Origin: Tomocerus qinae | Lineage: Eukaryota; Arthropoda; Collembola; Entomobryomorpha; Tomoceridae | Length of the DNA: 64,000 nucleotides | NCBI GenBank assembly: GCA_020055645.1 | Contig: CM034546.1 | Span: 806,001-870,000, forward strand | Direction: 5' to 3' | Notes under the pieces: model-generated | What the model was told of the DNA's origin: nothing | Databases searched by the model: none | The model's input: only the letters and a program-made list of their open reading frames with translations | Shown here: in pieces, positions 43,015 to 63,001 of the stretch | Position numbering within the stretch: position 1 is the stretch's first letter | Layout of the letters: the number at the start of each line of letters is the position of its first letter | Position numbers and translations under genes: made by a program

Positions 43015-43544
43015 CATTTTTACAGGCATCAACATAAATAAGCATATATCGGCTGATTGAAAACAGAATGGCTAATTGCTGGAGAAACATCAATTTTCAA
43101 AACTGGAACTGGGAAAGTTTGAAATAAGCTTCCGGATATAAAAAGAGGACGCAAATTCTTAGAATTATGTTAACATTTCATAGTATTATGTTGCATAATA
43201 ACTGCCCAAATGCCATTCATGCTCTTGATGTTCGGTTCACATTTATTTATTATATCTAGACCGAAGTACATGGACGATAATACGATAAGAACAAGGTAAA
43301 AGTGCCACTTTGGTTATACCCAATGCAATTTTAATTACAATTTGCATTGGCGTTATCAGCAATATTGATAAGTATTGCCATATTCACTTAAGAAACTCAA
43401 GTATAGTGATACTTTATGATTCCTCGTTATGAACTGAGAATTAACTGATAAAATATTAATTAACCGTTCATTTATTTTTTCAACTCTCGACTTATTGCTC
43501 CAAGAAAAACTTTTGTAGTTAAATTGCAATTAAAAAGTAAAACA
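43015..43544 (+). other. Intergenic / promoter side of GMC gene 1
   Basis: AT-rich with no ORF. It should include the promoter and leader of the oxidoreductase starting at 43545; no motif can be named with confidence. Confidence 0.4.
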
Positions 43545-46500
43545 ATGAATTTGGCTGAGTTTTTGTTGTCCATTCCTTTATTAATACGGCTGTATGCCGA
43601 CAAATATTATCAAGATGATTTAAATAAGACCATGATGGATTGGGCAAGTGAATCTAACGTGCCTGCAGTTAAAGAATACGACTTTATTATTGGTAAGTCA
43701 ATTGAAGCTTTAAATATTTATTTTGAAATTTTAAACAATTCTTCATATTTTATAGTTGGAGGCGGAACGGCTGGTTGCGTCTTAGCTGGACGGTTATCAT
43801 CACAATCCCCATTTAGTAAAGTGCTTCTTCTGGAGGCTGGAGGAACTCCCCCGCCTGCTGCTGATGTTCCTTACTTTGCTACTAAGGTAGCTTGGGATCC
43901 AGAAATTAACTATTTCTTCCAGTCTGTGCCCATGACAAATGCTTCTCAGAGCACTGACGGGGTAAGCTATTTTTATTGACGTAAGCTTCGTAAGCACGAA
44001 ATTAAATAAATAGTACCAAATCAATGCTATTTCATTTATGGTTAGATTAACTACGTTGTATAGCTGGGTAGAATGTCTACTTCCTTTTTCTACTAACATA
44101 TATTTTTAGCATGCCTTAATAAGTAAATTTGAAAAAATACCATAAATTAATTATACCAAAAGGAAATCTTTCTATTTACAGTATGGTGTTTCTCTCATTT
44201 CCATAGGTTGTAATAAATCATACTGGCAAAATGCTGGGAGGTTCAGGCTCGCATAATGATTTAATTCATAGTCGCGGTAGTCCAAAGGATTTTGACAATT
44301 GGGCCAATATCACTAACGATAACAGTTGGAATTATGCCAACGTTTTGCAGTATTTTAAAAAATCAGAAAACTTTATTGGACAACAATTCGGTTCGGACAA
44401 TCTCACAGGTTCGTTTTAGTTGACTTTCTTTAATTAATTAAAGGTTTTGATTTTGGCAATGTAAATAGATAATTCTTATCAATTGCAGAGTACTATGGTC
44501 AAGGTGGACCTATAACAGTTGATACGAATGACGTCCCAATGCTGCCACTTTGGTTTCAAGCAGGACAGGAGTTGGGATATGCACAAGGAGATCCCAATGG
44601 ATTTCAAAGAGAAGGTATGCCGTGGTACAAATTAATTTGTTTGTGACATTTGTTGTATTAATAATGTATAAATGAATCAGGATTTGCTCCGGTAAACAAA
44701 GCAATTAACAGCGGCCGACGATCAAGCTCATTTTCTGAGTATGTTGCCAAATGGGAAAACGATCCAGCAAATACTGGATATCTTACTGTAATGAGATACG
44801 CAAATGTTTCTGAGGTACTTTGGATTCCAAATAATGTCACCTTAGCTTTTGACTTTCAATAATTGAATACACTTTTAAAAACTGTCTATTATCAATATAA
44901 AACAGCATGTATATTAAAAAGTTATATACAGGGCAGACTGGTATTTTGATGATACTCGTCTAGGTATACGGTGCAAAGTTATACCGACGTCCCTTTTAAA
45001 GCACTGTATCTTAATATTCCGTAGATCCTGCTGGACGGAAATAAACGTGCATACGGAGTGGCCTTCACCCGCCACGGATTTCCACAGATTGCTCACGCCA
45101 CTAAAGAAGTGATACTCAGTGCGGGAGCATTTTCTTCACCACTTCTCCTAATGAAATCCGGCATCGGTCCCACCGCACAACTAACGGCAGCCAATGTATG
45201 ATTATCCTTGGTTATTTTGATATATTCACGTGATATCAGCAACATTAACGAATTAAAAAGAAGTAGTAGAGGGACGAAGGAGTAGTCCACACCCTCCGCC
45301 ATCTTGGATTCTGAACGCTCGGACACTCGGCCACATAGCCTGTGGGTACTGTGGAAGTACAGGCACTAACCTAACCCTTATGCTCGGATAGTATTCCACA
45401 CCCTATATTGATAGCTTGAACACTCAGCCACATAGCATGTGGGTACTGTGGAAGTACAGGCACTAACCTAACCCTTATGCTCAGATAGTATTCCACACCC
45501 TATATTGATAGCTTGAACACTCAGCCACATAGCCTGCGGGTACTGTGAAAGTACAGGCGCTTGGCCAACCTAACTCTTGGATAGTAGTCCACACCCCACA
45601 TCATCTTGATAGCTCGGACACTTACAACCATAAACATTCATGATATTACAGGTACTAACCAAACTCTTGGATAGTAGTAACCATATCCAAATGCAGTCAT
45701 AGGAGTATAGCGAGATTGGATTACTCATACCCTCCGGCAAACATGTACACTTGGATCTTAAAATAATTTCTATATAATGCAAAGTTAACGTATTATAATA
45801 TGATTATATCGTATTCAAATAAGTATCTCTATAAGGATATCGATGACATAAAATAAAGGTAAAATAGTATAAATAAAGATGGATAATCGATGAACACAAG
45901 TGTGTAGACATCAACATTGTAAATATCTGTATGTGTGACTTTACATGTGAGAGTCAATGCAATTGATAAAAGGGAGATAGGAGAGGGTTAGATAAAAAAA
46001 GCGTGCAATCAATAAGTAGAATGCTTTAGGTACCTAAGGGTACTCGGTAATATCCAGTGTTTGTCGCATCTACGTGTTTAATCCAGTGTACAGTACACTA
46101 GACAGGTAAATGCACAGTTTTAGGTACCTTGCAATATTAATAAAGCAGAAATAAGTTATTTCCAACACTGCAGTATAAATAAAACAAAAGAATGCTATGA
46201 CTTTTAGTCAGATAATCCTTACTCGGAAATATCTTTACATAAAAGGCTGCATCTTACATGTATCTTCCAACCTTCATAGTTTATTTTTAAAAGTTGCACC
46301 AAGAGCTTTACTCAAAATTTTCGTCGTTAAAAGGAAGCCAAGAAAATATTATAATTCATATCGTTCTTGTACTCCAAACCTCCAGCATCTAACTTCAAAA
46401 GTCCTGTTCCTGATATTACAATTATTTTCAAAATGGAAAATTGTCCCATTTGCAATGTTGTCCTGACTGAAAATTTCGAGAAACATTTTAAGGAGATTCA

Positions 46501-49500
46501 TCAGTGTCTCTTCTGTTCAAGGTTTAAAGATGTTTGTCAGTGCTTTAAGTACTATTACAGTATCTCACATCATTATTTAAAATTATTAGGACAAAACTTT
46601 TAACTGAAGAATAATTAACTTAATAAATTGACTTTTGTATTTTCAGCTTGTCCCAAGTGCACCAAAAAATTCAAAACAGAGAATTCAATGGAAGACCATC
46701 TGCTTGCTGACCACATCTGTTCTATCTGTGACGAAGACCAATCCATATGTAACTGTATCGAACAACTAGAGTTCCAGAGTTTGGATTCAAGAAAACGCCG
46801 ACGAGAAGATGAAGAAGTTCCATCTACAAGTAAGAGACTCAGAATTTCTAATTCCCCAGGACATTCCGACTTCGTGCCAGCCTCTGTGCCAACACAAGAA
46901 GAAGTGGACAATATTCAGAATGAGCCACGTCCGGACACCAATCTAAAAACTGTTAATGTAAGTCTGTTAAGATCTAAGCACTGCCCTGCTTGTGACATTG
47001 TATTTCCAAGTACACATGGTCTTCAATTGCATTTAGTTAACACTCACCCAGAATATTACTCGAATGTTGATTTTCCTCAAGTAGGAATGGGAGAGGACCA
47101 TATCGAATTAACCTTAGTTAAAAGTGCATTTGACATTTATCATGAATTCAATTGCAGTTTAGACCATTTAGTTGTCAAAGATATTCGTGGGATATTTCAC
47201 AGTTTAAGAAGCCAAATTCTATCAGCATTTAGAGAACATTTAGACGATTGGATTACATTTAAGGTCCATTTTGATATAGTGGTTGCATTTAGTAAAAAAC
47301 AACAAGATGATACATTTATGCATGACACCAGACCGTTTCCAGGCTTCATGTTTCCAGTTCTAAATATGGACAATGCTAAAGTAGCAATTAAGGTTACTAA
47401 TGACCATTTTGCCGAGAGGCAAGATCATGTAAGAAATGGTTCAGGATGGAACATAGATAATGTTAAGGAATTTAAAATGACAATTGTAAAGTATATACCA
47501 TTGTGTGGAGGAAGGAAAAACATACCTTTACCAGATATACTTAAGAAGAAAAACAAAACATTTATTAACGTGGCCGTTGATGACAACTTATGTTTCAAAA
47601 CGCGCGATATATGCCACGAAAGTGTACACTGCAAGGAAGTACATCCTAAAAATGTAAATCGTAAATTAGAAAGCGTTGAATTCCTATAAGGATGTACTAG
47701 ATAATGGAAAAGTCAACTGGGATGGAATTAACTTTCCTTTTTGTCTTAAAAATAAATACAGAAATTTGAAAGGCAAAATCCTGATATTGGACTTACCATA
47801 ATAGGTTTCTCTGAAGAATTTTAGAGAGGCGTAAGAGTTCGAAAGTAAAGATAGACGAAGAAAATAATTATGATGACATAATTAATGCAGTAGCAATTGA
47901 TGATAGTGATGATGATTATTACGAAGAGTCTGATGATGATGAATCGGTAAAAGAGAAATCATATGGACAAAAAAGCAGAAATTATCGACTATTGTGCTCC
48001 TTTGCATGTATGTAATAATGATAGGCCAATTAAAATAGATTTACTGTTAATTATGGATGACAGGCAGAAGACCACTTCGTTTTTATTAAGGATCTTACAA
48101 AGTTACTTTATAAGGCTCGTGCGAAACACGTTTGTCGTCATTGTCTTCAAGGTTTTAATGATGACTATGATGAACATGTAAAATATTGTTCTTCACTTGA
48201 TAGAATAAAACTGTATTCCCAAAGCATAATTTTTTAAAATTTGAAAAGTTTAGTCGTACGCAAATGTCTCCATTTACTGTTACGGCAGATTTTGAATCTT
48301 TCTTAAGCCTACTGGCAAATTTTTAGAAGTAAAAATAAGTGACAAAACAAGAAAACGCCAAACACTGTAAAAGTACAACTTCATAAAGCTAGTGGCTTTA
48401 GTTGGCGATGTATTAATTGGAAAGGTAAACAACAAAGTAGCAGTTTTTATAGGGTAGACGGCGAAACAGATGATGCCCCAAAACGTTTTCTAACAGAAAT
48501 TTTAGCACTCAATGAAGAATTACAGAATGAAATGAAAGAGTATGAAAAGGAAGCTAAAAAAACTATGATAATTAGTGAAGAAGACAACCGAAAGTTTAGA
48601 AATCCGCACAAACTATGTAACACTAAATGTCATTTTTGTCACAAATGCTTTACATTCAAGGATTTTAAGGGAAAGAAAATAGTTAGACATCATGAACATT
48701 TACCGCCTTATAATTTTATTGGTTTTGCACACAGATCGTGTAATATAAAGGCCTCTACACCTAAAACATTAACTGTATGCTTCCATAATTTACGTGGCTA
48801 TGATGGGCACTATCTTATACAAGCAGCTTCCGAGGATCTTGTTAAAGAAGTTGAGGTTATTCCACAAACATCGGAAAAATTTATGAGTATAATTATAAAC
48901 AAGCAGATCAAATTTATTGACACTGCACTCTTCATGCCTGAAATTTTAGGAGATTTAGTCAAAGATCTAAAGGAATTTCCTATAACAAGAGAGGCATTTT
49001 GTCAATATAGCAAAGAACAAGTAGATTTACTTTTAAATGTGGTGCTTATCCATATTCTTATATGGATTCTGTAGAAAAGTTCAAGGAAACAGAATTACCG
49101 CCAAAATCGATTTTTAAAAATGATCTAACCGGTAAAGATATAGACGATGATGTGTACTGCAATGCTCAGAAAGTTTGGAAGGAATTTGGTATCAGTAATA
49201 TGGGTGAATGGCATGATTTGTATTGCCAGCTAGATACCGCGCTTTTAGCAGATGTTTGGTTTAAACTTCGGAACACAATGTACGATCAGTATGGTCTAGA
49301 TGTTTGTCATTATTTTTCATTACCTATGTTTAGTCTAGATGCCGCCTTAAAGTTTACAGGCGTGTCTCTAGAATTTATCAAAGATCCTACAATGCATGTA
49401 TGGCTAGAAGGTGCAATACGCGGTGGGTTAGTAAGTGTGGGAGATTTAAGAGCGGCAAAAGCAAACAATACATTTTGTCCTGACTATGACGATAAGAAAC

Positions 49501-52500
49501 CATCATCTTATATTATGTACTGGGATGCTAATAATTTATATGGTCATGCATTAAGTCAATACTTACCTCATAACGGATATAGATGGGCAACTGATAAAGA
49601 GTTAGAAGAAATAAGAAAAATCCAAATGACTATATCTTGGCTATGAAAGATAATCAGAAAACATGCATGTTTTTTGAGGGTAGACATGGTTATCCCGGAA
49701 GATAAAACATGACTTTTTAAACGCATACCCTCCCGCCCAACGTCAAGGATTATAAATGACAAAGAAATATCTATATGCAACATGAGTTGGCTGATATGCT
49801 AGGAATAGAGATTGATGGTAAACAAAAACGATTGATTGCTGACTTGAAAGACAAGGAAGGCTATGTTTGTCATTACAGGGCTTTAAAAACTTATTTAAAA
49901 TTAGGCGCTGAAGTCAAATATGTAAGAAAAGTTATGGTTTGCAATCAAAGTCCATGGATGGAGCCTTTTGTCGCTGAAAATACAAAAAATGCGTACTTTA
50001 GCTACCAGCGAAATAGAAAAAGATTTTGGAAACTTTTAAATAACACAGGTTATGGCAAGCTTATCGAACAGAAAAGACAGAGAACCAAAATTCATGTAGT
50101 TCTAAATAAAGAAAAAGGTCTTAGGTTAAATAGTAGACCAAACGTTGCTCATTCATCAATTATAGACGAGAGAATTGTCTTATTGACCATGAAGAAAATG
50201 CAAGTTACTCTTGATCGACCAATAGCGGCTGGTGTTGCAGTGTTAGACATTAGTAAGACTACAATGTTTAATTTTCATTATGATTTTATTGCTAAAAACG
50301 TACCCTAGTAAACACAACTTGTTGTACACAGACACAGATAGTCTTATTTACTTGATAGAAACCGAAAATGTCTATGATGACTGTCAAAAGTACGAGAAAG
50401 ATTTCTTTGATATGTCTGATTATAAACCAAATGATGTTATTTTAGGAAAATATCACAATTTAATGAACAAAAAGCGATTAGGATATTTTACTGATGAATC
50501 ACCAAATGCGATTATTACTGAATTTGTTTGTACTAAGCCAAAGGCATATTGTTGTCGTAGCAGAAAACAGCTGATGTTTATAATAACACAGGAGACTATA
50601 CAAAAAAGAAAAGATTAAAAGGAGTTAGTAGAAGTGCGGTTGAAAACGATATAGTTTTTGATCATTTTGTGGATGCAATGTGTCCAGACAATTTTTTGAA
50701 TGCTCAAACATTTGCTGTAAGTAAATCTCTGCGTAGTTTCTTGCATCAAATGTATACAATTGAGAGTAGAAAAAAGGCTATAAATGGCCTAGATGTAAAA
50801 AGATATTCTCCTGATGGGATTGTTACTCTAGCATATGGTCACAAAGACATTAAATTGTATGAAGAAAACGTGTATGATGTTAATATTGATGTAAATACTT
50901 GTGAAAAGGATGCTCGCCAATTTGCTGCAGATTTTGTTGATTCGTTTTACTAGTTATGTAACTTAAACTAACCTAATGTAAGCTAATTTAGTCTAATTTA
51001 AGATCCGTTTTACTAGTTTTGTAACCTAACCTAACCTAATGTAACCTAATTTAGTTTAATTTAAATGTTATAAAATAAAAATGAATAGACAATTTAAGTT
51101 GATGTAATCCATCGTTATTTAATGTAATTTAATGCACTGAAATTGTATTCTGAATATATAATATGGTGATGATTGAAAATAAAATAAAAATTTTTCCACA
51201 TAAACCTGTTTAGTATGCATATATTTATTTTAAATTAAGAAAAAATTACTTTCATTTACAAATAAAAGATTCTGAAACGTTAAAAGATTTGCAAAATTGT
51301 ACAAATAATCAAGCTGCTATGAACAAAAATACTGCGGTTTTCAAAATATCAACATTATTAGACATATAAATATCTACTTAAAGCCATTGACTTAGTGTTA
51401 TCTTAGTTACATATTGCATAATTAATGTAATAAATCATTCATTTCATGCATAAACCTTGGGAAATTACAATAAAAGTCACACTGCTACATATACACACGT
51501 ACCGCAGTATCAACCACAGTAACCGCAGTATAAACCGCGGTAACCGCAGCATCAACCGCGGTAACCGCAGCATCAATCGCAGTAACCGCAGTATCAACCG
51601 CAGTAACCGCACTATCAACCGCAGTATCAACCGCAATAACAATCGCGTCAACCGCACTATTAACCGCAATATTATTGATTATTTCACACTCTTAATATGT
51701 ATTTCACGTATGTATCTCAACAATCATTTACGTAAAACTTACTGATGGAATGATTTTTATGGACAATTTATCGTCTCAACAAACGTAATGATGCAATAGG
51801 TCAGGCTCGTAATTTCTAACGTAAAACCTTAATAACTTAATTCCTATGGTGAGACTTCACTCACGCAGTATCATACATGCATATTAATCATATTAAATCT
51901 TAGTATATATTTAAGTCTGCCGGGACTAACTTTTGACGCAGATGGACTAGAGAGCTAACAGAAAATGTCGGAGAAGTTTCTCCGAAATTTTCTGTGTCTC
52001 ACAAGCTCTCTTGGTCCTCTGTCTCAAAAGTTAGACCCGGCAGACTTAAATGAAAGTAATTTTTTCTTAATTTAAAATAAATATATGCATACTAAACAGG
52101 TTTATGTGGAAAAATTTTTATTTTATTTTCAATCATCACCATATTATATATTCAGAATACAATTTCAGTGCATTAAATTACATTAAATAACGATGGATTA
52201 CATCAACTTAAATTGTCTATTCATTTTTATTTTATAACATTTAAATTAAACTAAATTAGGTTACATTAGGTTAGGTTAGGTTACAAAACTAGTAAAACGG
52301 ATCTTAAATTAGACTAAATTAGCTTACATTAGGTTAGTTTAAGTTACATAACTAGTAAAACGAATCAACAAAATCTGCAGCAAATTGGCGAGCATCCTTT
52401 TCACAAGTATTTACATCAATATTAACATCATACACGTTTTCTTCATACAATTTAATGTCTTTGTGACCATATGCTAGAGTAACAATCCCATCAGGAGAAT

Positions 52501-55500
52501 ATCTTTTTACATCTAGGCCATTTATAGCCTTTTTTCTACTCTCAATTGTATACATTTGATGCAAGAAACTACGCAGAGATTTACTTACAGCAAATGTTTG
52601 AGCATTCAAAAAATTGTCTGGACACATTGCATCCACAAAATGATCAAAAACTATATCGTTTTCAACCGCACTTCTACTAACTCCTTTTAATCTTTTCTTT
52701 GTGCCATAGTCTCCTGTGTTATTATAAACATCAGCTGTTTTTCTGCTACGACAACAATATGCCTTTGGCTTAGTACAAACAAATTCAGTAATAATCGCAT
52801 TTGGTGATTCATCAGTAAAATATCCTAATCGCTTTTTGTTCATTAAATTGTGATATTTTCCTAAAATAACATCATTTGGTTTATAATCAGACATATCAAA
52901 GAAATCTTTCTCGTACTTTTGACAGTCATCATAGACATTTTCGGTTTCTATCAAGTAAATAAGACTATCTGTGTCTGTGTACAACAAGTTGTGTTTACTA
53001 GGGTACGTTTTAGCAATAAAATCATAATGAAAATTAAACATTGTAGTCTTACTAATGTCTAACACTGCAACACCAGCCGCTATTGGTCGATCAAGAGTAA
53101 CTTGCATTTTCTTCATGGTCAATAAGACAATTCTCTCGTCTATAATTGATGAATGAGCAACGTTTGGTCTACTATTTAACCTAAGACCTTTTTCTTTATT
53201 TAGAACTACATGAATTTTGGTTCTCTGTCTTTTCTGTTCGATAAGCTTGCCATAACCTGTGTTATTTAAAAGTTTCCAAAATCTTTTTTCTATTTCGCTG
53301 GTAGCTAAAGTACGCATTTTTGTATTTTCAGCGACAAAAGGCTCCATCCATGGACTTTGATTGCAAACCATAACTTTTCTTACATATTTGACTTCAGCGC
53401 CTAATTTTAAATAAGTTTTTAAAGCCCTGTAATGACAAACATAGCCTTCCTTGTCTTTCAAGTCAGCAATCAATCGTTTTTGTTTACCATCAATCTCTAT
53501 TCCTAGCATATCAGCCAATTCATGTTGCATATAAGATATTTCTTTGTCATTTATAATCCTTGACGTTGGAGCGGGAGGGTATGCGTTTAAAAAGTCATGT
53601 TTATCTTCCGGGATAACCATGTCTACCTCAAAAAACATGCATGTTTTCTGATTATCTTTCATAGCCAAGATATAGTCATTTGGATTTTTTCTTATTTCTT
53701 CTAACTCTTTATCAGTTGCCCATCTATATCCGTTATGAGGTAAGTATTGACTTAATGCATGACCGTATAAATTATTAGCATCCCAGTACATAATATAAGA
53801 TGATGGTTTCTTATCGTCATAGTCAGGACAAAATGTATTGTTTGCTTTTGCCGCTCTTAAATCTCCCACACTTACTAACCCACCGCGTATTGCACCTTCT
53901 AGCCATACATGCATTGTAGGATCTTTGATAAATTCTAGAGACACGCCTGTAAACTTTAAGGCGGCATCTAGACTAAACATAGGTAATGAAAAATAATGAC
54001 AAACATCTAGACCATACTGATCGTACATTGTGTTCCGAAGTTTAAACCAAACATCTGCTAAAAGCGCGGTATCTAGCTGGCAATACAAATCATGCCATTC
54101 ACCCATATTACTGATACCAAATTCCTTCCAAACTTTCTGAGCATTGCAGTACACATCATCGTCTATATCTTTACCGGTTAGATCATTTTTAAAAATCGAT
54201 TTTGGCGGTAATTCTGTTTCCTTGAACTTTTCTACAGAATCCATATAAGAATATGGATAAGCACCCTTATTTAAAAGTAAATCTACTTGTTCTTTGCTAT
54301 ATTGACAAAATGCCTCTCTTGTTATAGGAAATTCCTTTAGATCTTTGACTAAATCTCCTAAAATTTCAGGCATGAAGAGTGCAGTGTCAATAAATTTGAT
54401 CTGCTTGTTTATAATTATACTCATAAATTTTTCCGATGTTTGTGGAATAACCTCAACTTCTTTAACAAGATCCTCGGAAGCTGCTTGTATAAGATAGTGC
54501 CCATCATAGCCACGTAAATTATGGAAGCATACAGTTAATGTTTTAGGTGTAGAGGCCTTTATATTACACGATCTGTGTGCAAAACCAATAAAATTATAAG
54601 GCGGTAAATGTTTATGATGTCTAACTATTTTCTTTCCCTTAAAATCCTTGAATGTAAAGCATTTGTGACAAAAATGACATTTAGTGTTACATAGTTTGTG
54701 CGGATTTCTAAACTTTCGGTTGTCTTCTTCACTAATTATCATAGTTTTTTTAGCTTCCTTTTCATACTCTTTCATTTCATTCTGTAATTCTTCATTGAGT
54801 GCTAAAATTTCTGTTAGAAAACGTTTTGGGGCATCATCTGTTTCGCCGTCTACCCTATAAAAACTGCTACTTTGTTGTTTACCTTTCCAATTAATACATC
54901 GCCAACTAAAGCCACTAGCTTTATGAAGTTGTACTTTTACAGTGTTTGGCGTTTTCTTGTTTTTGTCACTTATTTTTACTTCTAAAAATTTGCCAGTAGG
55001 CTTAAGAAAAGATTCAAAATCTGCCGTAACAGTAAATGGAGACATTTGCGTACGACTAAACTTTTCAAATTTTAAAAAATTATGCTTTGGGAATACAGTT
55101 TTTATTCTATCAAGTGAAGAACAATATTTTACATGTTCATCATAGTCATCATTAAAACCTTGAAGACAATGACGACAAACGTGTTTCGCACGAGCCTTAT
55201 AAAGTAACTTTGTAAGATCCTTAATAAAAACGAAGTGGTCTTCTGCCCTGTCATCCATAATTAACAGTAAATCTATTTTAATTGGCCTATCATTATTACA
55301 TACATGCAAAGGAACACAATAGTCGATAATTTCTGCTTGTTTTTGTCCATATGATTTCTCTTTTACCGATTCATCATCATCAGACTCTTCGTAATAATCA
55401 TCATCACTATCTACATCAATTGCTACTGCATTAATTATGTCATCATAATTATTTTCTTCGTCTATCTTTACTTTCGAACTCTTACGCCTCTCTAAAAATT

Positions 55501-58500
55501 CTTCAGAGAAACCTATTATGGTAAGTCCAATATCAGGATTTTGCCTTTCAAATTTCTGTATTTGTTTAAGACAAAAAGGAAAGTTAATTCCATCCCAGTT
55601 GACTTTTCCATTATCTAGTACATCCTTATAGAATTCAACGCTTTCTAATTTACGATTTACATTTTTAGGATGTACTTCCTTGCAGTGTACACTTTCGTGA
55701 GCATATATCGCGCGTTTGAAACATAAGTTGTCATCAACGGCCACGTTAATAAATGTTTTGTTTTTCTTCTTAAGTATATCTGGTAAAGGTATGTTTTTCC
55801 TTCCTCCACACAATGGTATATACTTTACAATTGTCATTTTAAATTCCTTAACATTATCTATGTTCCATCCTGAACCATTTCTTACATGTTCTTGCAGCCT
55901 CTCGGCAAAATGGTCATTAGTAACCTTAATTGCTACTTTAGCATTGTCCATATTTAGAACTGGAAACATGAAGCCTGGAAACGGTCTGGTGTCATGCATA
56001 AATGTATCATCTTGTTGTTTTTTACTAAATGCAACCACTATATCAAAATGGACCTTAAATGTAATCCAATCGTCTAAATGTTCTCTAAATGCTGATAGAA
56101 TTTGGCTTAAACTGTGAAATATCCCACGAATATCTTTGACAACTAAATGGTCTAAACTGCAATTGAATTCATGATAAATGTCAAATGCACTTTTAACTAA
56201 GGTTAATTCGATATGGTCCTCTCCCATTCCTACTTGAGGAAAGTCAACATTCGAGTAATATTCTGGGTGAGTGTTAACTAAATGCAATTGAAGACCATGT
56301 GTACTTGGAAATACAATGTCACAAGCAGGGCAGTGCTTAGATCTTAACAGACTTACATTAACAGTTTTTAGATTGGTGTCCGGACGTGGCTCATTCTGAA
56401 TATTGTCCACTTCTTCTTGTGTTGGCACAGAGGCTGGCACGAAGTCGGAATGTCCTGGGGAATTAGAAATTCTGAGTCTCTTACTTGTAGATGGAACTTC
56501 TTCATCTTCTCGTCGGCGTTTTCTTGAATCCAAACTCTGGAACTCTAGTTGTTCGATACAGTTACATATGGATTGGTCTTCGTCACAGATAGAACAGATG
56601 TGGTCAGCAAGCAGATGGTCTTCCATTGAATTCTCTGTTTTGAATTTTTTGGTGCACTTGGGACAAGCTGAAAATACAAAAGTCAATTTATTAAGTTAAT
56701 TATTCTTCAGTTAAAAGTTTTGTCCTAATAATTTTAAATAATGATGTGAGATACTGTAATAGTACTTACCAAAGCACTGACAAACATCTTTAAACCTTGA
56801 ACAGAAGAGACACTGATGAATCTCCTTAAAATGTTTCTCGAAATTTTCAGTCAGGACAACATTGCAAATGGGACAATTTTCCATTTTGAAAATAATTGTA
56901 ATATCAGGAACAGGACTTTTGAAGTTAGATGCTGGAGGTTTGGAGTACAAGAACGATATGAATTATAATATTTTCTTGGCTTCCTTTTAACGACGAAAAT
57001 TTTGAGTAAAGCTCTTGGTGCAACTTTTAAAAATAAACTATGAAGGTTGGAAGATACATGTAAGATGCAGCCTTTTATGTAAAGATATTTCCGAGTAAGG
57101 ATTATCTGACTAAAAGTCATAGCATTCTTTTGTTTTATTTATACTGCAGTGTTGGAAATAACTTATTTCTGCTTTATTAATATTGCAAGGTACCTAAAAC
57201 TGTGCATTTACCTGTCTAGTGTACTGTACACTGGATTAAACACGTAGATGCGACAAACACTGGATATTACCGAGTACCCTTAGGTACCTAAAGCATTCTA
57301 CTTATTGATTGCACGCTATTTTGTCTAACCCTCTCCTATCTCCCTTTTATCAATTGCATTGACTCTCACATGTAAAGTCACACATACAGATATTTACAAT
57401 GTTGATGTCTACACACTTGTGTTCATCGATTATCCATCTTTATTTATACTATTTTACCTTTATTTTATGTCATCGATATCCTTATAGAGATACTTATTTG
57501 AATACGATATAATCATATTATAATACGTTAACTTTGCATTATATAGAAATTATTTTAAGATCCAAGTGTACATGTTTGCCGGAGGGTATGAGTAATCCAA
57601 TCTCGCTATACTCCTATGACTGCATTTGGATATGGTTACTACTATCCAAGAGTTTGGTTAGTACCTGTAATATCATGAATGTTTATGGTTGTAAGTGTCC
57701 GAGCTATCAAGATGATGTGGGGTGTGGACTACTATCCAAGAGTTAGGTTGGCCAAGCGCCTGTACTTTCACAGTACCCGCAGGCTATGTGGCTGAGTGTT
57801 CAAGCTATCAATATAGGGTGTGGAATACTATCTGAGCATAAGGGTTAGGTTAGTGCCTGTACTTCCACAGTACCCACATGCTATGTGGCTGAGTGTTCAA
57901 GCTATCAATATAGGGTGTGGAATACTATCCGAGCATAAGGGTTAGGTTAGTGCCTGTACTTCCACAGTACCCACAGGCTATGTGGCCGAGTGTCCGAGCG
58001 TTCAGAATCCAAGATGGCGGAGGGTGTGGACTACTCCTTCGTCCCTCTACTACTAAAAGATTTTAGGCATTTTTAAATACGCCCTTATTTGTTAGTGGCA
58101 TGTTAATATTTGTTATAGACAGTATAGTGTAATCCTTTTGTTAACGAAAAGGAATTAACTATGGTTGAAGTAAGACAGTGGTTGTACAAATACCTATCAA
58201 TGTTATTGTTTTAATTAGGTTATGTCACCCGAAAGCGGGTCCTGGTATGCCTTGTGTATTTCATTTTCCTTTTTAAAATGTACAACCTTTGTCTTACTTC
58301 AACCAAAATTAAAATTAAATAACTGCTACTTTCATGATAGATTCCAATCAAAGTTGCAATGGAGTCGGTAGGGAAAAATCTGAACGAGCATCCATCTCTG
58401 CAATTGGGACCTTTCCATGTTAATGATACTTCACTCTTTCCTCGGTTATACTCTAACGAAACAGAATCCCTTACAGAAGACTACCACAAAGGTGAAGGGA

Positions 58501-59411
58501 TATTGGCGAGTGTCCATGAAGGGCCTCAGTGCTTCATCCGATCGTCCAAAGCCGAAGAGGGTTGGCCGAACCTTTGGATTGAGATCCACCCTGTGGTCAA
58601 GGTTGACGACGAGCCTCAGGTTCTGCAGTATTACATCGTGCTAGGACGTCCTAAAAGCAGAGGAGAACTTTCACTTAACACAACTGCCTACAATCTCGGG
58701 ATTCGAGATGATGTCCAACTCGCTCTTATTGATTTTAAACTATTGACGCATCCTGATGACGTAGATGCTTTGGTCGAAGGTTAGTTCTGATTCAGTTGTG
58801 TAAAGTCTATGTTTAATAATTGCTAAATTACAATTTGTATTTCTATGTTCAGGCATCAAATTTACTCTGAATATTTCGGAAAACACAAATGCTTTCAAAA
58901 GAATAGGCATGAGATACGACGCTGTTGCAGATCCGGCCTGTGCAGCTCATACTTTCCGATCTGATGAATACTGGAAATGTTATCTGATACAAAATACTTG
59001 GTCTTGGATTCATATGACAGGGACTTGCAGCATGGGCCCGGATTCTGACACTCCGGATCAATCTGTTATTGACTCTAAATTCAGGTTCTGCTTATGCGAA
59101 ATGGAATATTGAGTTACAATTTGGCACAATTTTGATATGTTTTGAATTTTTGTGTATATTATAGAGTGAGAGGCGTGTCAGGTTTGAGAGTGGTCGATGG
59201 CTCTATCATGCCCTCGGTGGTAAATGCAAATACAAACGCGCCTATTATAATGATTGCCGAAAAGGCGGCTGATGAAATTCGTAAAACTTGGTACCCCGAC
59301 GGCGGTCAGTCTTCAACTACCCCATCTGGAAACGGAAATTCAGCCACTTCTTTCCGAGCTTTAAATGCCACATTCTTGATGATGTTTATCCTACTTATAA
59401 CAAAATTGTAA
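43545..59411 (+). CDS. GMC oxidoreductase 1 (FAD glucose dehydrogenase-like)
   Basis: FAD-dependent alcohol/sugar oxidoreductase of the glucose-methanol-choline family. Nine exons: 43545-43692, 43756-43961, 44207-44408, 44489-44614, 44681-44814, 45025-45195, 58341-58779, 58853-59084, 59165-59411. Together 1905 nt, 634 residues, no stops. Motifs: FAD-binding [20 protein letters not shown] near residue 45; [18 protein letters not shown] (GMC signature 1); [16 protein letters not shown] (signature 2); [10 protein letters not shown]; catalytic [19 protein letters not shown]; and [17 protein letters not shown]. The N-terminus ([15 protein letters not shown]) is hydrophobic and signal-like. The C-terminus is a Ser/Thr linker then a hydrophobic end ([12 protein letters not shown]), suggesting membrane or GPI attachment. 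Intron 6 is 13.1 kb because a Polinton sits in it; the sister gene has 117 bp there. Coding is intact, so the gene may still work if the intron is spliced. Confidence 0.93.
45323..45680 (+). repeat. Subterminal 97-bp tandem repeats, left arm
   Basis: Units start ACACTC(G/A)GCCACATAGC at 45323, 45420 and 45517, exactly 97 bp apart; a diverged fourth begins near 45618. Each includes GGGTACTGTG, GTACAGGC and a CCACACCC block. The same set is mirrored in the right arm (about 57640-58000). Such arrays near linear-element ends may be replication or protein-binding sites. Confidence 0.85.
46433..50953 (+). pseudogene. Family B DNA polymerase, left-arm copy with frameshifts
   Basis: Plus-strand twin of the intact polymerase at 52352-56884, about 4.5 kb. 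It breaks into pieces (46433 onward, 46628-47689, 47963-48181, 48532-49074, 49062-49646, 49775-50308, 50280-50618, 50669-50953). Compared with the other arm, most breaks are one-base gains or losses in homopolymers: A runs near 48210, 48345, 49617, 49702 and 50295, T near 48300, G near 49675. Three bases are missing at the intron donor near 46544 (TTTAAGT for TTTGGTAAGT). Motifs such as [19 protein letters not shown] and TDTDS survive in the pieces. Whether this is decay or consensus error cannot be told from the sequence. Confidence 0.9.
51021..51040 (+). repeat. Short (CCTAA)n run, telomere-like
   Basis: GTAACCTAACCTAACCTAAT contains three CCTAA units, the complement of the arthropod telomere repeat TTAGG. 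It is mirrored at 52265-52282 in the other arm, just downstream of each polymerase stop codon. It may be chance in AT-rich DNA. Confidence 0.4.
51258..51914 (+). other. Central spacer of the Polinton, minisatellite-bearing
   Basis: Between the arms, AT-rich. From about 51500 to 51670 it has a GC-richer minisatellite of 9- and 12-bp units (AACCGCAGT, AACCGCAGTATC, AACCGCGGT). No ORF except frames created by this repeat. No capsid, integrase or ATPase fragment is found. Confidence 0.7.
51911..52049. mobile_element. piggyBac-like MITE at the inner arm border
   Basis: 51915-52045 is a long hairpin: GTCTGCCGGGACTAACTTTT pairs with AAAAGTTAGACCCGGCAGAC, and GAAAATGTCGGAGAA with TTCTCCGAAATTTTC around the centre. 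TTAA flanks both sides (51911-51914, 52046-52049). A TTAA duplication is typical of piggyBac elements; the termini are not the standard CCC form, so the class is tentative. Confidence 0.6.
52352..56884 (-). CDS. Protein-primed family B DNA polymerase (Polinton)
   Basis: Replicative polymerase of Polinton-type elements; family members start DNA synthesis from a terminal protein. Exon 1 is 56884-56770 ([15 protein letters not shown]..., 38 codons) and exon 2 is 56667-52352, with a clean GTAAGT...CAG intron of 102 bp. Joined length is about 1476 residues. Three Cys/His clusters at the N-terminus (CPIC...H...H, CPKC...H...H, CPACDIVF...H...H) resemble zinc fingers. Exonuclease motifs are ADFESF (Exo I), [10 protein letters not shown] (Exo II) and [11 protein letters not shown] (Exo III). 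Polymerase motifs are [12 protein letters not shown] (A), NNTGYGK (B) and [10 protein letters not shown] (C). A [27 protein letters not shown] Cys/His block lies before Exo II. All catalytic Asp residues are present, so this copy looks intact. Gene order in complete Polintons would add integrase and virion genes, absent here. Confidence 0.93.
57640..58000 (-). repeat. Subterminal 97-bp tandem repeats, right arm
   Basis: Mirror image of the left-arm array: the CTATGTGGC(T/C)GAGTGT(T/C)CA(A/G)GC boundary recurs at 97-bp steps up to the CTACTACT end of the element. Confidence 0.85.
58163..58304. mobile_element. MITE family 3 copy in GMC1 intron 6
   Basis: Starts GGTTGAAGTAAGACAGTGG and ends CTTTGTCTTACTTCAACC; 142 bp, no ORF. 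Related to the copy at 26204-26327. It lies between the Polinton and exon 7, 36 bp before the acceptor. Confidence 0.7.
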
Positions 59412-60205: not shown

Positions 60206-63001
60206 ATGAATATTGCCGAGTTTTTACTGTCCATTCCTATTTTAATACGGCTCTACGCCGATAAATACTATCAGGATGATTTAAATACGACGATGATGGA
60301 TTGGGCAAGTGAATTTAACGTGCCTCCAGTTAAAATCTATGATTTTGTCATTGGTAAGTAAAATCGACTCAAACATAGTTAGTCTATTTGGTATTTTAAT
60401 AATTTAATCTAAAACATTTTAATATTCATTTTAAAAAGGAAACATAATTTCTGTGCGCGTATAGTTGGAGGTGGAACGGCTGGTTGTGTCTTGGCCAAAA
60501 GGTTATCTTCGCAAGCTCCGTTTAGTAAAGTGCTGCTTTTAGAGGCGGGAGGGACGCCGCCGCCCGCTGCTGTGGTACCCTTCTTTGCAATGGATGTCGC
60601 ATTCGATCCAGAAATCAATTATTTCTTCCACACTGTACCAATGACAAATGCTTCTCAGAAAAATAACGGGGTCTGTGCTCATCTCGGACATTTTTCCAAT
60701 TAATATTATCATACCTGTGTAATTGCACTTTAATATTGTAGTTTATTATTTCCTACAGGTTGTAATCAATCACACTGGAAAAATGCTAGGTGGGTCAGGG
60801 ACACACAATGAATTATTGCACAGCCGTGGAAGTCCGAAGGATTTTGATAATTGGGCCCAGATTACTAACGACGATAGTTGGACTTACGCAAATGTCTTGA
60901 AATACTTTAAAAAGTCCGAAAATTTTATTGGCCAACAATACGGTTCCGATAATCTAACAGGTTCAAACTTTAGAACTGCATCAATTACTTAAATGTCTAT
61001 TTCTTGTAATATTGTGTTAATCACTATATAATAATTGTTGTAGAATATTATGGCAAAGACGGTCCTATAGTGGTTGACACAATTGAGACTCCTGTACTCC
61101 CGTTGTGGTTTCAGGCCGGACAAGAATTGGGATTTGCACAAGGGGATCCCAGCGGATTTCAACGAGAAGGTTCGATAATCTCAAATTGAAGTTGTAATTA
61201 GAGTTAACAGTTTCTTATAAAATTCCAGGTTTTGCATCGGTGAATCGAGCTGTTAACAATGGACGCCGTTCTACCTCATTTTCGGAGTATATTGAAAAAT
61301 GGGAAAACGATCCTGCTAATAACGGTTATCTTACAATCATGAGATACGCAAACGTCTCCGAGGTAGGAAACATTTCATCTGCTTGGGAATCAGTTGAAAT
61401 TATAATTTCCATAATAATTTACAGGGCCGCAGCCGGGGGATGCAGCCCCCCCGAAAGAAAAGAAGTTTTGCCTTAAAACCCAAAAATTTTTCGCGCCGAT
61501 TATTATTTGTCGCCCCCCCCCCCTCCGGAAATTTTTACTGGCTGCGGCCCTGATAATTTACATAATATTATTTTCATATATTTAACTTTCCTAGATTCTT
61601 TTGGACAGTAATAAACGAGCTTACGGTGTCACTTTTACCCGCCACGGATTTCCACAGATTGTTCACGCCACTAAAGAAGTAATTATTAGTGCAGGAGCAT
61701 ATTCTTCGCCGCTTCTACTAATGAAGTCAGGAATTGGACCAACCGCCCAATTGACAGAAGCTAACGTAAGGTTTTGCTTAACATTCAGTTTTACTAATGC
61801 AGTAGTATGTGTAATTATATCATTATTTAAATTTAGATGCCTTATTGATATAAATATAATAGAAATAAAGATATATTTATAGATTCCTGTAAAAGTGGCG
61901 ATTGAATCTGTTGGAAGAAATGTCAGCGAACACGCTTCACTCGTTTTTGGGCCTTTCCAAGTAAACGACACTTCGCTTTTCCCCAACCTTCGCTCAGAAG
62001 ACATAGAATCGCTATTCGAAGATTATCACAAAGGAGAAGGATTACTGACGGGTGTCAACTCAGGGCCGGTGCAGTGCTTTATCCGGTCTTCAAAGGGAGA
62101 GCCTGATTGGCCAGATCTTTGGATCTCGATGAATGGTTATGCCATGACCGATGATGAGCCTCAAATTGTTGATTTCTACATCGTGCTAGGACGTCCAAAA
62201 AGCAGAGGAGAACTCACTCTCAATACAACGGCCTACAATCTGGGAATCAAAGACGATGTTCAATTGGCCCTCATCGATTTCAAATTGTTAACTCATCCTG
62301 ATGATCTAGATGTAATGGTTGAAGGTAAAACTAGACCAAATTCGGTTTTGCTGATCTTTATGTAAAGTGAGTGGCTTTATTACATAAAATTTCTCCAGGG
62401 ATCAAATTTGCACTGACGATTGCCGAGAACACGACATCCTTCCAAAGAATAGGGATGAGATATGCCGGTGTTTCCAATCCGGCATGTTCAGCTTATACGT
62501 TCCGTTCCGATGACTACTGGAAGTGTTTCCTTTATCAAAATGCAATGTCCTGGAATCACGCAGCAGGAACTTGTAGCATGGGACCCAATTCCGACACTCC
62601 GGATCAATCTGTTATTGACTCTAAGTTCAGGTATTTATAGCAGATTAAAATTGCCAAATTCGGAAATACAAATATCGTATTGAAATGTCAATAAATTTGT
62701 ATACAGAGTGAGGGGCGTGTCAAATTTGAGAGTTGTTGATATCTCCACTATGCCTGCAGTTGTAAACTCCAATACAAACGCGGCTGTCTTAATGATGGCT
62801 GAAAAGGCAGCTGATGATATTCGGAGTACATGGTTCCCTGATGAAGGGCCAACAACTCCCCCAACAACCAATCCCCCAACGACTCCCCCAACAACCAATA
62901 CCCCAACGACCCCATCTGGGGATGGCAATGGAGCTGCTACTTTCCAAACTTTTAAAATCACATTTTTATCAGCATTTACTTTGTCTTTATGGCTACTATA
63001 A
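60206..63001 (+). CDS. GMC oxidoreductase 2, tandem paralogue
   Basis: Same family and same nine-exon plan as gene 1: 60206-60353, 60465-60670, 60759-60960, 61044-61169, 61229-61362, 61595-61765, 61883-62324, 62399-62630, 62707-63001. The exons add to 1956 nt, 651 residues. Intron positions and phases are identical to gene 1, so the pair arose by tandem duplication. Motifs: [70 protein letters not shown], and [17 protein letters not shown], where gene 1 has [10 protein letters not shown]. The donor of exon 2 is weak (GGG|GTCTGT). The C-terminus has a repeated TTPPTTN linker, mucin-like, then a hydrophobic end ([12 protein letters not shown]), as expected for a GPI or tail anchor. Substrate is unknown. 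Confidence 0.94.
61414..61560. mobile_element. hAT-type MITE in GMC2 intron 5
   Basis: Element 61422-61552 (131 bp) has ends CAGGGCCGCAGCC and GGCTGCGGCCCTG, with ATAATTTA duplicated on both sides (61414-61421, 61553-61560). It is GC-rich at both ends, unlike the host intron. It has a poly-C run (61512-61523). Confidence 0.92.

Follow-up and report, generated by a model that had tools for sequence, protein, structure and literature searches.

Polintons (Mavericks), like adintoviruses, combine AG...CT ends and a 6-bp target duplication with a gene (polB) for a family B DNA polymerase, and one account (PMC11071308) describes the Polinton polymerase as a single chain made of terminal protein, vOTU, exonuclease and polymerase. 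Passages of PMC6431247 describe ordinary Polintons only, and the literature searched (titles and abstract openings, with most subscription papers outside its scope) yielded no description of palindromic or polymerase-only Polintons. Here we analyse a 64,000-nucleotide stretch of the springtail Tomocerus qinae (the window; C1:806001-870000, contig CM034546.1, of a 334-Mb genome in 115 contigs). It holds an element, named E1, that is a new structural variant of a Polinton-derived element and, by comparison with the rest of the genome sequence, one copy of a multi-copy palindromic family rather than a lone odd copy. Each arm of its members carries a polymerase gene, and between the arms lies a bulged hairpin that is conserved in the family. 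We think it probable that they replicate capped by a terminal protein and folded at the hairpin, with insertion predicted to depend on the integrase of ordinary Polintons acting in trans.

As an initial annotation of the window had noted, E1 is flanked by copies of AAAAGA (45256-45261 and 58055-58060) and carries AG...CT terminal inverted repeats, its outer ends being AGTAGTAG...CTACTACT. Its two inverted arms (45262-51258 and 52047-58054) are 99.2% identical; their alignment of 6020 columns contains 15 mismatches and 35 gap positions. Together they make up 94% of the element, and 788 bp separate them (790 bp in that annotation). The polymerase-only content described there was also borne out: frames of at least 100 amino acids (aa) are polB and one of 133 aa antisense to it. 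None of these frames is an integrase, ATPase, protease or capsid gene, and none of the long ones is a Rep/NS1 nuclease-helicase or capsid gene of a parvovirus or bidnavirus. A genome search for rve-type integrases had no match within E1 among the best 129 of 354 candidates. The features of E1 are as follows.

45256..45261, no strand: target duplication AAAAGA, left copy (sequence)
45262..51258, + strand: left inverted arm with outer end AGTAGTAG (arm alignment)
45323..45558, + strand: 97-bp tandem repeats, 2.4 copies, near the left end (repeat search)
46433..50953, + strand: polB of the left arm, its frame broken at several places where it differs slightly in length from the right arm, the predicted intron donor among them
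51259..51904, + strand: inner left arm, its right-arm partner deleted (match to other elements)
51501..51668, + strand: 21-bp repeat array in the inner left arm
51905..52052, no strand: central imperfect hairpin, the palindrome centre of intact relatives (fold, position in relatives, paired changes)
51997..52013, + strand: hairpin bulge motif TCTCACAAGCTCTCTTG
52047..58054, - strand: right inverted arm, about 0.6 kb beside the hairpin deleted (arm alignment, mapping)
52352..56667, - strand: polB of the right arm, predicted exon 2, an open frame with exonuclease and polymerase residues
56668..56769, - strand: predicted polB intron, 102 bp, GT-AG
56770..56884, - strand: polB of the right arm, predicted exon 1
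57758..57993, - strand: 97-bp tandem repeats near the right end
58055..58060, no strand: target duplication AAAAGA, right copy (sequence)

A whole-genome search with the E1 left arm gave at least 54 matches, many of them as inverted pairs. Genome searches scored the best candidates (25 of 189 for the arm, 129 of 354 for integrase, 52 of 314 for polymerase and exon 1, 32 of 389 in another), so that all copy counts drawn from them are lower bounds and a single copy is one with no partner among the matches listed. Ten element regions (E1-E10) were compared with themselves, and inverted arms were present in every one. In E2, E4, E5, E6 and E9 the symmetry continues across the centre; these five measure 12.9-13.5 kb and consist of arm throughout, while E1, E3, E7, E8 and E10 have a gap at the centre. 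Polinton-type ends and a 6-bp duplication are present in the eight regions whose true ends were read (all except E7 and E10), and the eight duplications all differ: AAAAGA, CATTTA, GTAGCA, TTTGTT, TGTTCT, CTTGAT, CTTTAT and, in E4, AAGAAC. The last tells less, because the tandem repeat around E4 could itself supply AAGAAC; E4 is also the only element whose symmetry extends into its flank, a tandem repeat. The left end of E8 has one extra AGT. The initial annotation had proposed a search for such copies and had held that its idea would fail if all others were ordinary; in fact the ten arm-similar regions compared have inverted arms without exception, but the genome also contains ordinary relatives whose ends are the same or similar. 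Copies that looked single-armed were considered as half elements and rejected as such, since those on C3 and C7 are palindromes and three others (S1, S3, S4) run on into an ATPase gene.

Mapping against the half-element of E2 showed that each gap is sequence lost beside the centre: E1, E3 and E7 lost it on one side and retain the hairpin, in E8 the loss extends into the hairpin, and in E10 the hairpin has gone. The 788-bp stretch of E1 matches the inner arm of the other nine regions, and the centre of all but E10, and therefore the right arm of E1 lost roughly 0.6 kb beside the centre. The apparent spacer is thus, by alignment, the inner part of one arm with its partner deleted, together with the central hairpin; it is not an original part, as had been supposed, for intact relatives have no spacer and carry the bulged hairpin at their exact centre. 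A reading of the hairpin in the spacer as a separate miniature inverted-repeat transposable element was rejected, the hairpin being the palindrome centre in relatives.

The five intact copies have an imperfect hairpin at their midpoint, and its asymmetric bulge is the same in all five. In E1 the hairpin (51905-52052) has a predicted folding energy of -54.8 kcal/mol (z -15.1). The hairpin is nearly unchanged across an arm divergence of up to 13.5% between copies, and its bulged core is among the least changed parts of the elements. An alignment of eight of the 19 places described below has the 3' core TTTTCTGTGTCTCACAAGCTCTCTTGG unchanged in all copies and 9 of 62 stem pairs altered on both sides, a number reached in 0 of 500 shuffles. 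Since such co-variation, seen in the outer stem, is expected of any homogenised palindrome, the telling point is the retained bulge, where the two sides differ. The hairpin motif occurs at 19 places in the genome with at most two mismatches (0 in the reversed control), 18 of them with both arms, weakly at L050, and one (L052) with a single arm within the kilobase read around it; the bulge motif survives even in L055, a copy that has diverged strongly (about 75% to E6). These places were picked by motif, and motif identity among them is by selection; among the ten regions picked by arm similarity, eight keep the motif, E8 having lost part of it and E10 the whole to deletion. The exact 17-base motif also occurs once in a 50-kb viral contig (L056, 7373-7389), probably by chance.

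Arms within an element are far closer to each other than elements are. Substitutions between the polB copies of the two arms number 13/4324 in E1, 15/4324 in E2, 5/4344 in E3, 0/4340 in E4, 2/4333 in E5, 0/4330 in E6, 22/3599 in E7, 1/3192 in E8 and 1/4329 in E9, whereas polB differs between elements by 0.4-16.0% (0.4-0.9% among E1-E3, otherwise about 6-16%). In a polB tree, from which the right arm of E10 was left out, the two arms are sisters in eight of nine elements. Near the centre, arm identity at further loci runs from 91.1% (C3) to 100%, and we read this gradation as arms identical at birth and decaying later, though slow gene conversion between arms after insertion may fit it too.

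A stronger form of the latter explanation, which we regard as unlikely, holds that the palindrome formed once and that its arms have since been kept identical on the chromosome by inter-arm gene conversion, as in sex-chromosome palindromes, with no hairpin replication at all. It would account for near-complete identity within elements whose subfamilies differ by 8-13.5%, and conversion would stop at the asymmetric centre, as observed. It also fits E10 as well as copying does: there a 3.1-kb non-polB block with a 501-aa frame, presumably akin to another transposon, is mirrored in both arms at 99.0% and at the same half-element position (L025/L026; C14:236522-239622 and 246820-249951, the outer left flank of E10 lying outside the sequence read). 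If this block was inserted once and then copied, it would be direct evidence of arm-to-arm copying. However, the spread of arm identities from about 91% to 100% among loci is that expected of identical arms ageing after insertion, and the left arm of E4 has a 0.37-kb insertion that is missing from the right arm, despite zero polB substitutions between the two. The little-changed bulged core speaks against conversion as well.

Differences between the E1 arms are confined to 45993-50604, the outer 731 bp and inner 654 bp being free of them. The chance of such clustering is about 2e-5 for 41 evenly placed events; a simulation on a trimmed alignment, in which an event at the end was counted, put it at 0.004, and E2 has a similar but weaker clustering (0.024). 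Of the 26 indel events in E1, 23 adjoin the same base. Because homopolymer-type indels dominate and the ends near unique sequence are avoided, part of the E1 arm difference may be assembly or polishing error. The same observations, with polishing imperfect, are the best case for a wider artefact, in which fold-back reads or misassembly created the inverted arms; we consider this very improbable. The symmetry of seven loci breaks off at Polinton ends, beyond which the 6-bp duplications match but the flanks differ, and many loci are alike, with graded arm divergence and, in five, loss beside the centre.

The polymerase gene has been maintained by selection. In E1 the right-arm frame is open for 1447 codons and that of the left arm is interrupted, a small length difference there altering the predicted intron donor. 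An alignment of the right-arm protein with 20 homologues has 64 invariant columns, including D556, E558, D969, N971-Y974 and D1238-S1241, which we take to be exonuclease and polymerase motifs. The closest match is an unnamed protein of 42% identity; among named proteins those of springtails come nearest, at 39-40%, and a sequence search of the PDB found no match. A single full-length open frame is present in four palindromic copies (right arms of E1 and E9, left arms of E5 and E6). Over their six pairs the ratio of nonsynonymous to synonymous substitution rates (dN/dS) is 0.122-0.196 for the whole frame and drops to 0.057-0.089 when counted from residue 550, at dS 0.25-0.59; therefore the polymerase was under purifying selection while the subfamilies diverged. 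TTG as the gene start was rejected in favour of a predicted short upstream exon followed by a GT-AG intron. This intron is absent from the 21-kb ordinary relative described below; it is not a mark of the palindromes alone, as two 14.5-kb ordinary copies (S1 and S3) also have a separate exon-1 match. A scan of viral contigs for close relatives of the E1 polymerase returned none, and an alignment scan of IMG/VR viral contigs returned two (L027, L028) with PolB 30-32% identical to that of E1. L027 has an rve integrase adjoining PolB, plus an A32-type ATPase.

Ordinary Polintons of 14.5 kb and 21 kb in the same genome have an end sequence the same or nearly the same as that of the palindromic family. 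The end pattern occurs at 93 genome places with at most two mismatches (13 in the reversed control). One ordinary element (C1:39943730-39965096, 21.4 kb) has a 135-bp terminal repeat, the duplication ATTTGC and an end one mismatch from the pattern; polB, 80% identical, lies at its left end, adjoined by an A32-type ATPase gene above the Pfam cut-off, and an adenovirus-protease-like gene falls below the cut-off. Genes at its right end we assume to be penton- and capsid-like by their patterns, without a Pfam match. A second pair of ends (C5:22550229-22571375, 21.1 kb) has one polB match listed, 3.4 kb from one end. The 14.5-kb pairs S1, S3 and S4, half of each read, have polB and then the ATPase; identity to the 21-kb element over this part is 96.8% for S3 and 91.1% for S4, and S1 matches S3 at 96.6%. 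At least ten other polymerase places, with low-identity rows from frame-broken or degenerate family copies excluded, have 41-51% identity and no inverted partner among the matches listed. Long Polinton polymerase frames of 46-51% identity with no mirror partner among those matches lie at C9:16397, C93:14382, C1:94011759 and C1:13535886. Inside the 21-kb ordinary Polinton there is also a reverse-transcriptase-like frame (L058:1-1161; PF00078, below cut-off), presumably Penelope-like.

Given such relatives, each palindrome could instead have arisen on its own from an ordinary Polinton, as a dead-end snap-back (defective-interfering) product with no lineage behind it. Consistent with this, polB is at the end of the ordinary relatives, the polB of the ordinary S1 nests among the palindromic ones, and a separate polB exon 1 is common to palindromes and to S1 and S3. 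But the palindromes, in several diverged subfamilies, have the same inner segment and, unless deleted, the same hairpin, and neither lies beside polB in the ordinary pieces read, where only repeat arrays are similar. We therefore hold serial snap-back formation to be improbable, more so than gene conversion, and the lone integrated snap-back form first suggested for E1 does not fit. The position of S1 is read as movement of polB between the two kinds of element, and from their sequences polB seems to have been exchanged between ordinary and palindromic Polintons. The 21-bp repeat array of the palindrome inner arm resembles a repeat in an open frame of S3 and S4 (L039:54-233, L041:78-279), and the inner segment may derive from that gene.

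A 5.6-kb palindrome (L059, C1:136042859-136048505; 92.4% over 3609 columns) has the same ends and the duplication CTAATT. The hairpin bulge at its centre is similar, and it contains a C2H2 zinc-finger frame; a polB match was absent from it. It keeps ends and hairpin without the polymerase, and therefore its sequence suggests that these are sufficient as cis parts.

For the family as a whole we favour replication through the hairpin. The polymerase would carry its own terminal protein and start at the AGTAG ends; the displaced strand would fold back at the hairpin, one arm would be copied or corrected from the other, and both would leave each cycle identical. Copying through the hairpin would yield a 13-kb duplex palindrome, and an integrase would join its two ends to chromosomal DNA, generating the 6-bp duplication. 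Once inserted, the arms would drift apart slowly, and sequence beside the hairpin was lost in five of the ten compared copies, E1 included. Of the two ideas in the initial annotation, a replication-only lineage that borrows an integrase is thus the better supported, the borrowing itself being a prediction. A fuller version, which we put forward tentatively and with somewhat less than even confidence, is a new eukaryotic replicon: a 6.6-kb half-size linear DNA, one end of which bears a terminal-protein cap while the other is a bulged hairpin telomere. Copying through this hairpin would turn it into a mirror-image duplex, a borrowed integrase would integrate it, and the replicon would have its own polymerase-less palindromic satellite and trade polymerase genes with ordinary Polintons. 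A surviving lineage reduced to ends, polymerase and hairpin would show a route from a virus-like element to a minimal hairpin replicon with its satellite. It would also account for the origin and spread of perfect 13-kb palindromes in a chromosome, and would allow hairpin-end replication by a protein-primed polymerase to be tested in an animal.

Several observations weigh against this scheme. The analysis covered the assembled genome, and identical arms could result from gene conversion after insertion; the arms of E2, the sole exception of nine, are not sisters in the polB tree. The S1 polB inside the palindromic clade has mosaic identity, and polB histories are mixed. The genome has at least 129 integrase matches, retroelement integrases included, but among the best 129 of 354 none falls inside the five ordinary same-end intervals, with element middles, such as 8 kb of the 21.4-kb element, unread. 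Pfam assigned no polymerase family to the E1 polymerase, only a sub-threshold zinc finger. A fold search with the predicted structure of its N-terminal 649 residues (mean predicted local distance difference test score, pLDDT, 72.4) ranked an adintovirus protein best and then MELD-virus PolB, but the template-modelling (TM) scores of the former are low (0.28/0.31) despite a strong E-value (3e-29), so the terminal-protein domain is putative; PDB fold matches are weak (best E 0.006).

Around E1, open frames at window positions 43464-43979, 58359-58784 and 61883-62365 resemble pieces of tandem genes, which by their motif we take to encode GMC-oxidoreductases (Pfam had no match for the second). E1 may sit inside an intron of one such gene.

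Compared with known systems, E1 differs from Polintons and Mavericks, of which ordinary members are present here too, in being palindromic, in having polB in each arm and a central bulged hairpin, in terminal repeats that are not short relative to the element, and in lacking integrase, ATPase, protease and capsid genes. Its invariant residues agree with the protein-primed family B polymerase of Polintons, the primer function being predicted, and by gene content it is not an autonomous Polinton, though its ends and polymerase are of Polinton type. Hairpin plasmids come closest to the proposed form: a kalilo deletion derivative, a protein-primed linear plasmid (reportedly from Vierula and Bertrand 1992, by its title), and the yeast pGKL1 hairpin plasmid, said to have been described by Kikuchi in 1985, are protein-primed replicons that exist as a hairpin and a mirror-image duplex, and as in them the arms of the palindromic family meet at the fold-back point and are otherwise nearly identical. 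Those plasmids are extrachromosomal deletion derivatives, whereas the palindromic family, here known from an assembled genome, is integrated and diversified, its polymerase has been under selection and its bulged hairpin is conserved. Defective adenovirus genomes with inverted duplications arise by fold-back of a protein-primed linear genome and are defective and short-lived; the proposed palindromic form would share the fold-back, and we know of no lineage or conserved central hairpin among them. The terminal hairpins of parvoviruses are imperfect with a conserved asymmetric bulge, like the centre of E1; unlike a parvovirus, E1 has no gene besides polB, and its other end is that of a Polinton.

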